Virus record (IMG/VR): IMGVR_UViG_3300008517_000005 | Coordinates: 1 to 26,669 of that record | Strand: one strand, 5' to 3' | Origin: a virus | Length of the DNA stretch: 26,669 nt | Part shown: positions 16,128 through 24,325 of the stretch, in pieces | How positions within the stretch are numbered: the stretch's first letter is position 1 | Layout of the letters: each line of letters begins with the position of its first letter | The notes under the pieces: model-generated | Database searches by the model: none | What the model saw: only the letters and a program-made list of their open reading frames with translations | What the model was told of the DNA's origin: nothing | Translations under genes and position numbers: made by a program

Positions 16128-16398
16128 AAGAAGAAGTATTTATAATATTAAAAATCGTTTTGTAATTGAGTTGATATTTCTTGGAAATAACCTTATACAA
16201 TTCTTCTGCTTTCTCGCCTTTTTTCCGGCGGTCACGAAACTCCTGCTGTATGAGAATATTGCGTATTGGAACTGAGGGAATTATTGATTCGGGGTTAATA
16301 AATTGGGGAGAGATACCCATATCAGTAAGTTCATCAGAAATTACTTTTTTTAAACGTGACATTATAAGAAATAAAGAACTATTTATATGTGTTTCCAT
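16126..16398 (-). CDS. Mor-like transcription activator
   Basis: 90 residues from METHINSSLFLIMSRLKK; a start at the inner Met 13 is possible. The C-terminal part (about 48-88) has EFRDRRKKGEKAEELYKV then ISKKYQLNYKTIFNII, matching the helix-turn-helix layout of Mor/C activators (positively charged helix, xAxxYxLSxKTVxxII). In phage Mu, Mor and C turn on middle and late promoters by dimer binding to a dyad. Here the gene is the last of the early half, directly upstream of the dyad at 16102-16127, so it may activate the morphogenesis operon. It overlaps the HNH gene by 16 nt. Confidence 0.6.
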   Translation of the reverse strand: METHINSSLFLIMSRLKKVISDELTDMGISPQFINPESIIPSVPIRNILIQQEFRDRRKKGEKAEELYKVISKKYQLNYKTIFNIINTSS

Positions 16399-16919
16399 CT
16401 TTTTCGTTTTATTATATATTCCGTATGACGACTTGTTATATTAAAATCTTTAGCAATATTTATTGTTTTTTCACCATTTGAAGAACGTAATCTAATTTCT
16501 TTTACATCATTTTCAGTTAATCTTGCTTGTGAATGTTTTTCACCTTCATGGCAACTTAACCCTATTTTAAATGAATGTTCAATGTTTTCCGGATGATTTA
16601 CCAATTCCAAGTTATCAGGTCTGTTACATGCCCTGATACCATTGATATGATTGATTTCAAAACCATCAAGGATTTCACCATTGAAATAAATCCACACAAC
16701 CCTGTGACCAAGACAATGATATTTTTTCCCATTTTTACTAAAATCAATACGAATATAGCCGTCTTGATTCTTACTATTTAGTTCTCTTGGAGTAATTTTT
16801 TGATATTTGGTTTTCCCATATCTTGTGGCAATTCTCCAAATTCTACCTTCATTGTCAATCCTGAAATATCCTTCTTCAATGGCTTCGATGAATAAATACT
16901 CTTGGTGTGCTGGTTTCAT
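16383..16919 (-). CDS. HNH homing endonuclease
   Basis: 178 residues with AGAGGAG upstream. Central HNH_3 motif: GHRVVW (H72), EINHINGIRACNRPDNLELV (H91, N93, N103). A C-terminal helix-turn-helix (about 130-178; ARLTENDVKEIRLRSSNGE to NIAKDFNITS) supplies DNA binding. Typical free-standing homing endonucleases spread between phages by cutting sites in an occupied locus. Here it stands between rusA and the Mor-like gene without splitting either. Target unknown. Confidence 0.9.
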   Translation of the reverse strand: MKPAHQEYLFIEAIEEGYFRIDNEGRIWRIATRYGKTKYQKITPRELNSKNQDGYIRIDFSKNGKKYHCLGHRVVWIYFNGEILDGFEINHINGIRACNRPDNLELVNHPENIEHSFKIGLSCHEGEKHSQARLTENDVKEIRLRSSNGEKTINIAKDFNITSRHTEYIIKRKRWKHI

Positions 16920-21767: not shown

Positions 21768-22775
21768 CTACTTTGGAAATTCTGAATATATTCTTCCGTC
21801 AAGTTCAGGCATGTGAATTACTTTGCCGTTTATTTCCATCTGTTTTAAAAAGAAAGGAACATTCCATTCGATACACTGGTCTCTTAAATTCCTTATACTA
21901 TTAATATTTACTTGTCTTCGGTTTTGTCCTGATTCGCAACCGCAGAGTATCCAATCAATCTCTTCGCTTGGAAGTGCTGTTACATATTCACGAGGAATAC
22001 CAAGATTGTGGCTATAATATGTAACATATTCAGTCGTCATTAAATATGGTTCTAAATTAATACTTTCCAATTGAGGCTCAACACTCACAATCCTTTTGCT
22101 TGCCTGTATCGGTAAGAGAATATGACCTTGTTTACCAACATCTGGAGACATAGGGCTTATATTTGAAGTCTCTTTTTTGCGAATACCCTTTTTTCTTTCT
22201 CTAAAAGCACGTAAATTACATTTATGGCTACAATACTTTTTTAATGCAGAACCTTCAATATCTACACCACAAACTTCACATTTTCTACTACCCTTTGCGG
22301 TATAAACAACACCATAATTAGAAATGAAATATCCAGGATAATTAGGAATTGGCTTTATTTCTTCTTTTATGTTATGCATTAATAGTTGTACACTTATTTT
22401 ATCAATTTCTCTTGCTATAAAAAATGGTCTTTTATAATAACTTAAATATTCCAACATTCTTTTAGGTCGTTTAGTAAGAACTATAAAGGTATGCAGGGGA
22501 TTTAATGCCATCAGTGCAAAAACCTTATCTATAAAATTCTCTGGCACATCTTCATGAAACAAATCACTCATGCTACATACGAATATCTTGCGAGGTTTTT
22601 TCCAGTGTAAAGGTTTTTTAAGTCGATCGGGATGGCACTGCACATCAGTAAAATTCCTATCTCCCCAGAATCGTTTTGCTATACGCTCTGCATAACAGTT
22701 TTTACATCCCTCTCGTATTTTTGTGCAACCTGTTACCGGATTCCAAACCTCATCGCACCATTCGATTTTTGTCAT
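21768..22775 (-). CDS. Gp37/Gp68-family protein (DUF5131-like) with a NUMOD4/zinc-knuckle insertion
   Basis: 335 residues. Residues 1-110 and 225-335 are typical of phage Gp37/Gp68 proteins: TKIEWCDEVWNPVTGC..I..GCKNCYAERIAKR (Cys17, 24, 27), FVCSMSDLFHEDVP, FIVLTKRP, RIVSVEPQLESI, WILCGCESG and VPFFLKQ. These three-Cys proteins of unknown function are thought to bind a metal or Fe-S centre. In place of the usual LGVSVENQ segment, residues about 139-222 hold PIPNYPGYFISNYGVVYT, which is NUMOD4-like (the DNA-recognition module of HNH endonucleases), then a zinc knuckle (Cys166, 169, 182, 186). No HNH catalytic residues. The join is in frame and the flanks look intact. Confidence 0.75.
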   Translation of the reverse strand: MTKIEWCDEVWNPVTGCTKIREGCKNCYAERIAKRFWGDRNFTDVQCHPDRLKKPLHWKKPRKIFVCSMSDLFHEDVPENFIDKVFALMALNPLHTFIVLTKRPKRMLEYLSYYKRPFFIAREIDKISVQLLMHNIKEEIKPIPNYPGYFISNYGVVYTAKGSRKCEVCGVDIEGSALKKYCSHKCNLRAFRERKKGIRKKETSNISPMSPDVGKQGHILLPIQASKRIVSVEPQLESINLEPYLMTTEYVTYYSHNLGIPREYVTALPSEEIDWILCGCESGQNRRQVNINSIRNLRDQCIEWNVPFFLKQMEINGKVIHMPELDGRIYSEFPK

Positions 22776-23157: not shown

Positions 23158-23826
23158 TCATGTGATTTGTAAGTCCAGTTTTAATTGTTGCCGTTCATAT
23201 CCTATTCTCTTGTTTGCTATCTCGCAATACTCGGGTGATATTTCCATGCCTATAAAATTACGGTTAGTTCTGATACAGGCGACTGCCGTTGTGCCTGAAC
23301 CGATAAATGGGTCGCAGATAAGGTCATTTTCGTTTGAATAATTATATATAATCCAATTAAATAACTGCAGAGGTTTCATAGATGGGTGCAGTCTCTTTTC
23401 TTTATGTTTCATATCTTCTTGTAACATACCAGACCATTGCCATGTAAATTTTCTTGTGGCTGTTTTGAAACTTGTCCAGGCTAATTCACAATCAGAAAAA
23501 TCTGTATCGCCATTTACCTTGTCCCATATTATCCAGCAAGATGCTTCTGGGAGTTCATAATCAGTATAATAATTACCCCCGAATATTATTTGGTTTTTAC
23601 TAATTCTGAATATTTCCTTAAAATAAATTTCATTTATTCGTGTTATATCCCAATCAAAAGTACCATAATCTATACAATGAGTTAAATTTCCACGAGATAG
23701 TCTTTTCTCTCTATTTTCATTTATTCCATACGGCGGGTCAGTCAGCACTAAATCAACACTCTTATCTGGCAACTCTTTCATCAGCTCCAGACAATCACCG
23801 CATACTATTTTATCTTTCTCAAACAT
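23158..23826 (-). CDS. Beta-class DNA methyltransferase (N6-adenine or N4-cytosine)
   Basis: 222 residues. Catalytic motif DPPYGI at 30-35 lies N-terminal to the SAM-binding DPFIGSGTT at 172-180, with HPSMKP (147-152) between; this order marks the beta class. Target recognition must use the short middle part (about 40-140). Its length is at the low end for solitary methyltransferases. No restriction gene is nearby, so it is probably an orphan enzyme protecting phage DNA or affecting regulation. Starts inside the preceding 60-residue gene. Confidence 0.9.
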   Translation of the reverse strand: MFEKDKIVCGDCLELMKELPDKSVDLVLTDPPYGINENREKRLSRGNLTHCIDYGTFDWDITRINEIYFKEIFRISKNQIIFGGNYYTDYELPEASCWIIWDKVNGDTDFSDCELAWTSFKTATRKFTWQWSGMLQEDMKHKEKRLHPSMKPLQLFNWIIYNYSNENDLICDPFIGSGTTAVACIRTNRNFIGMEISPEYCEIANKRIGYERQQLKLDLQIT

Positions 23827-24251: not shown

Positions 24252-24325
24252 CGGGACTGGCAGGATTCGAACCTGCACCTCTGATTCATCAATGTCAGTG
24301 TGTCCACCAATTACACCACAGCCCC
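24252..24325 (-). tRNA. tRNA with a one-base-long anticodon arm, identity uncertain
   Basis: Read on the minus strand from 24325: acceptor GGGGCTG pairs with CAGTCCC (one G-U), D arm GTGT/ACAC with a GG-containing loop, T arm GCAGG-TTCGAAT-CCTGC, discriminator G at 24252, no encoded CCA. The total is 74 nt. The anticodon arm has stem CTGA/TCAG but 18 nt in all, against the usual 17, leaving a bulge, an 8-base loop (ATTGATGA) or a C-A closing mismatch. If UU is 32-33 the anticodon is GAU (Ile). Quadruplet reading (UGAU) is the other option. The variable loop is one base short. Confidence 0.75.

Follow-up and report, generated by a model that had tools for sequence, protein, structure and literature searches.

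A phage DUF5131 gene with an in-frame homing endonuclease remnant, probably left by deletion of the nuclease

The window, i.e. the whole 26,669-nucleotide stretch of viral DNA analysed here, carries a gene of the DUF5131 (Gp37/Gp68) family interrupted in its middle by a NUMOD4 motif and a zinc knuckle, both read in frame with the host protein. With a probability of about 80%, this gene is an in-frame DUF5131-endonuclease fusion which has since lost the nuclease domain, the HTH, and the adjacent strand of the enzyme by an in-frame deletion. Complete fusions of this kind, with the endonuclease at the same site, are found in DUF5131 genes of at least four other viral contigs. The features of the gene are collected in Table 1.

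Table 1. Features of the DUF5131 gene of the window (positions refer to the window)
Feature	Position	Strand	Basis
Radical-SAM-like DUF5131 (Gp37/Gp68) gene containing a homing endonuclease remnant	21768..22775	(-)	Pfam PF07505, phrog_2045, 17 family-invariant columns
DUF5131 N-terminal part, residues 1-138	22362..22775	(-)	Profile alignment, A1 and A7 alignments
CX6CX2C cysteines C17, C24, C27, probable iron-sulphur site	22695..22727	(-)	Invariant in 91 relatives; superposition of the modelled region with spore photoproduct lyase
Homing endonuclease remnant, residues 139-218	about 22122..22361	(-)	BLASTP and shuffle test against L238
NUMOD4 motif KPIPNYPGYFISNYGVVYTAKGS, residues 141-163	22287..22355	(-)	Pfam E 0.001; phrog_59; 57% identity with L229 over 28 aa
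Zinc knuckle CX2CX12CX3C, residues 166-186	22218..22280	(-)	Sequence; PHROG matches; same place in L238 endonuclease
MSPDVGKQGH, residues 209-218, endonuclease strand before HNH domain	22122..22151	(-)	Matches MSPDTGEQGH (L238) and MQPDVAKDGY (L229)
DUF5131 C-terminal part from I219, without beta strand WLGVSVEN and start of next helix	21771..22121	(-)	ILLPIQASKRIVSVEP against ILLDILASKRIVSVEP in L013; strand scoring

Results

The product of the gene is 335 amino acids long and matches Pfam PF07505 (DUF5131) with an E value of 3.2e-62 (210.6 bits against a gathering score of 28.9), while the gene matches phrog_2045 of the PHROGs database at 2e-71; both flanks of the insert match strongly, in agreement with the family assignment made in the preliminary description. 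A profile made from 90 relatives, excluding the window sequence, scores the protein at 287.9 bits; the alignment covers residues 2-335 and is interrupted in its central part by a long gap, where nothing aligns credibly. The family motifs in the flanks and the three N-terminal cysteines (C17, C24, and C27), also described previously, are indeed kept, as are all 17 columns invariant among 91 relatives. The closest insert-free relative, L013, is 54% identical to the window protein in the alignment. Similarity to the NCBI family "radical SAM mobile pair protein A" is also seen, far below the cut-off of that family, and PADLOC lists the family of the gene among candidate defence proteins (PDC-M41B/M30B). 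The model of L013 superposes on spore photoproduct lyase with a Z score of 13.7 (3.3 A over 201 residues), and the radical SAM barrel fold with the three-cysteine site is found also in the model of the window protein (Z 12.6), where the insert is of low confidence. On the basis of these models the window protein is probably a radical-SAM-like enzyme, with C17, C24, and C27 forming a probable iron-sulphur site. No paper on DUF5131 was found among the open-licence papers searched.

The conserved segment WLGVSVENQ..ADERIP, comprising the otherwise conserved WLGVSVEN strand of DUF5131 proteins, is gone from the window protein. The best 13-mer scores 3.8 bits for the family segment PNVWLGVSVENQK, whereas the minimum among relatives is 18.2 bits and the median 27.2; the value lies within shuffle noise (7.0 bits at 95%), and the segment was not found in the other reading frames either. 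The replacement of LGVSVENQ proposed earlier is thus confirmed, with the limits of the replacing piece refined from residues 139-222 to 139-218. In the L013 model (pLDDT 90) the PNVWLGVSVENQK element forms a well-defined strand with a helix after it, the barrel strand at residues 146-152 being modelled at high confidence, while in the AlphaFold model of the window protein the replacing stretch is mostly below pLDDT 60, and below 50 for most of its length. Two candidates for the old strand or its substitute were rejected because their scores are within shuffle noise: NYPGYFISNYG as a drifted strand, and CGVDIEG as its replacement, even though the latter is favoured by both the aligner and AlphaFold. 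Behind H218 the DUF5131 sequence resumes at I219 as ILLPIQASKRIVSVEP, comparable to ILLDILASKRIVSVEP of L013. Outside the insert the gene shows no decay, with 5 of 60 conserved columns broken against 6 in L013; this fits a recent deletion but also a working protein or a retained role.

The insert matches NUMOD4 (PF07463) with E values of 0.001-0.002, and the knuckle cysteines are found at residues 166, 169, 182, and 186, as expected from the in-frame NUMOD4-like motif and four-cysteine knuckle noted before. The profile search proposed at that time therefore does give a match, but one of 18.8-19.7 bits, below the Pfam gathering score of 23.4. Real phage NUMOD4-HNH proteins (L230, L231, and L233) likewise miss this cut-off, scoring 15.5-18.9 bits, and hand-scrambled peptides of similar composition give no NUMOD4 match. 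The insert also matches the phrog_59 HNH family (4e-4) and the PADLOC HEase profile (0.005); no match to an HNH nuclease domain was found in the gene with Pfam. Third codon positions contain 15.5% G+C within the insert and about 27% within the flanks, a difference that is no more than suggestive.

Complete homing endonucleases lie in frame in DUF5131 open reading frames of four other viral contigs, L229, L237, L238, and L326, at the insertion place of the window gene. These endonucleases span 156 to 201 residues, and the WLGVSVED (or WCGVSVED) strand is kept in all four proteins. Their general domain order is NUMOD4-(zinc knuckle)-HNH-HTH, the knuckle being missing from L237 and L326. In L229 a whole NUMOD4-HNH-HTH endonuclease is placed between LTKRPERM... 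and WPLNNVWCGVSVED; in L238 the order is NUMOD4, knuckle, MSPDTGEQGH, HNH, HTH. HNH_3 is matched in L229 at 1.9e-9 and more weakly, below the cut-off, in the other three, while the phrog_59 HNH family is matched at 1e-28 in L238 and 8.8e-31 in L326. The window insert and the N-terminal part of the L238 endonuclease align unbroken from end to end (BLASTP, 43% identity over 77 residues, 69.7 bits), with a local score of 165 against a shuffle maximum of 47, and the NUMOD4 motif of the insert is 57% identical to that of L229 over 28 amino acids. In the same shuffle test L237 and L326, which have no knuckle, do not rise above the shuffles, so direct homology is carried by L238 and, for NUMOD4 alone, by L229. 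In the window gene the endonuclease sequence ends with MSPDVGKQGH (H218), and the L238 stretch equivalent to the missing part is 146 residues long, comprising HNH, HTH, a linker, the strand, and the start of the helix. The origin of the insert as a piece of a homing endonuclease stripped of its nuclease, suggested earlier from the window alone, is thereby strongly supported.

The fusions were found in steps: a NUMOD4-plus-knuckle probe of viral contigs gave L229, L237 and L238 came from a query combining L229 with the window, and L326 from an endonuclease-only query. Both probe alignments contained hand-made rows to steer the scan, which are themselves no evidence; the first alignment gave only weak, unrelated matches, and it was the second that led to L229. 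A DNA pattern of the knuckle plus SVEP gave 50 chance matches in viral contigs, none of them in frame or in a DUF5131 gene. It is worth mentioning that in L238 and L326 in-frame GTG codons, with GGAG or GAGGAG closely upstream, lie just before the endonuclease, which, judging from these signals, could also be made on its own.

No group I or group II intron was found with Rfam at E values up to 1 in the window or at the four fusion loci, and no intein family in Pfam scans of the window gene and the four fusion genes. An out-of-frame HNH reading frame was not found: the other frames hold stops, and the endonuclease is read in the frame of the host. Selfish DNA thus appears to enter this DUF5131 site without splicing.

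Ranked by the endonuclease-only scan, the top four relatives each sit within a DUF5131 gene, and the remaining 16 reading frames lie elsewhere; this endonuclease lineage therefore seems to be tied to the DUF5131 gene. An empty-site relative of the L238 gene, 65% identical to it, is present on a Saccharopolyspora pogona plasmid. A quick tree of the flanks alone, calculated after removal of the endonuclease, has many long branches; on it the five carriers lie dispersed, each beside empty relatives, and require five changes, a number that well supported branches enforce. Scans with the window protein or the insert alone retrieved no close relative having the insert, and no further fusion was found among 396 genomes of one phylum and 395 of another. 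The remnant state of the window gene is shared by none of roughly 240 DUF5131 proteins surveyed. The search for other family members with the same insertion, recommended in the preliminary description, was accordingly successful for the full endonuclease and unsuccessful for the truncated one.

Several other arrangements were noted around genes of this kind. On a Streptomyces californicus plasmid the DUF5131 gene has a related free-standing HNH gene immediately upstream, and in L002 (2547-2858) a small zinc-finger reading frame with the same type of knuckle as in the window gene lies directly downstream of DUF5131; an association of DUF5131 with adjacent zinc-finger reading frames was considered and rejected, only isolated cases being found. 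At about 1480-1640 of L011 and L012 a knuckle reading frame overlaps, in another frame, the starts of two different HNH genes having about 45 N-terminal residues in common. L055 and L056 share an identical stop at about codon 57 of the DUF5131 gene, in frame, L055 being open thereafter. The terminase large subunit of L174 (MT835790.1) has an intein-like insert with NUMOD4 and HNH. In the window itself, a free-standing HNH_3 gene (3.6e-15), matching a PADLOC homing endonuclease, is located at 16383-16919; one or more separate endonuclease genes are therefore present in the phage. A DNA methyltransferase gene lies near DUF5131, at 23158-23826 (a similar pair in the same order is present in the Bacteroidetes locus L133), and a tRNA gene on the minus strand at 24252-24325 (Rfam, 53.4 bits).

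Discussion

The window gene may be explained as follows. A homing endonuclease of the NUMOD4-zinc knuckle-HNH-HTH type would have invaded a phage DUF5131 gene in frame, in a variable loop right before the conserved LPNVWLGVSVED strand. Since inserts are tolerated in this loop, the host protein would still be made in one piece, with no need for an intron or intein. Empty DUF5131 alleles would be cut by the endonuclease near the conserved LPNVWLGVSVED stretch, and repair would then copy the endonuclease into them. In the lineage of the window a later single in-frame deletion, of about 146 residues if the ancestor resembled L238, would have taken both the nuclease and the HTH, together with the neighbouring strand of the enzyme, a part of the barrel. 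What was left would be NUMOD4 and the knuckle in a non-homing protein, probably an inactive or altered enzyme; in view of the loss of the barrel strand from the modelled fold, inactivity is the more likely state. We infer the deletion from distant relatives, since no close allele of the window gene with a full endonuclease was found.

The preliminary description went further and saw in the remnant a captured domain conferring DNA or RNA specificity, i.e. a working nucleic-acid-binding domain directing a living DUF5131 enzyme. The open frame, the intact four zinc ligands and NUMOD4 consensus, and the preservation of all family-invariant residues of the flanks speak for such a domestication, and AlphaFold weakly places CGVDIE at the position of the lost strand. 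Against it stand the loss of a conserved barrel strand and of the first part of the helix, the low modelling confidence of the insert, and the fact that not a single surveyed relative is in the same state, which makes domestication unlikely. The same judgement applies to a chimera, one deletion away from a selfish in-frame insertion, in which the DNA-binding half of the endonuclease would replace the barrel strand and give a radical-SAM enzyme a nucleic-acid target.

A misjoining of fusion-bearing and fusion-free phage sequences in the metagenome assembly would be compatible with the state being known from one contig, of which scans gave no second copy, but it is quite improbable, as the reading frame is kept on either side of the joint and one deletion from a fusion of known type suffices. 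Least probable is a chance likeness, with an ordinary zinc-finger insert, unrelated to homing endonucleases, occupying the variable loop: such knuckles are frequent in unrelated phage and bacterial proteins and NUMOD4 stays under the Pfam cut-off, yet the match to the L238 endonuclease runs from end to end at the same site of the same family, and the shuffle test also contradicts this explanation. The deleted in-frame fusion hence remains the preferred reading.

The closest published parallel in phages is the ShiLan domain, inserted out of frame in phage DNA methylases (PMC11855218). Common to both are insertion into a phage gene without splicing, a host frame that stays open across the insert, an HNH endonuclease with zinc fingers, a patchy distribution, and a nature of neither intron nor intein. 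The ShiLan endonuclease is out of frame with its host, unlike the in-frame NUMOD4-HNH-HTH endonucleases of DUF5131, of which the window copy is without the nuclease; neither the window gene nor the fusions contain an HNH in a non-host frame. An in-frame fusion of a LAGLIDADG endonuclease coding sequence to the host protein gene is given for fungal mitochondrial rps3 (Gibb and Hausner 2005, as cited in PMC7902536), which differs, as described there, in the endonuclease family, the organelle setting, and the location of the host gene itself within an intron. A phage ribonucleotide reductase gene also has a homing endonuclease within its coding region without a splicing element (Friedrich 2007, as cited in PMC10448857), but according to that account it is split into two proteins, while DUF5131 stays one reading frame. 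Phage NUMOD4-HNH homing endonucleases (PF07463, PF13392; phrog_59) have the same motifs in the same order and many free-standing copies; the window copy, devoid of HNH and HTH, cannot home by itself. The fold of the insert-free DUF5131 model is common to spore photoproduct lyase and other radical SAM enzymes, from which DUF5131 differs in its about 11% identity and its CX6CX2C spacing. In the open-licence papers searched no precedent was found for an unspliced NUMOD4-HNH insertion that recurs in frame at a single site of a radical-SAM-like phage enzyme and has a deleted derivative.

The fusions indicate that the same site of a conserved phage enzyme can be occupied more than once by a homing endonuclease, in frame and without splicing, and in-frame unspliced insertion is thereby added to introns, inteins, split genes, and out-of-frame reading frames as a way of residing in a gene. 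The deleted copy in the window would represent an intermediate on the path of a selfish element to either gene death or domain capture, and with empty, full, and truncated alleles at hand the domestication of DNA-binding modules becomes testable on real alleles.
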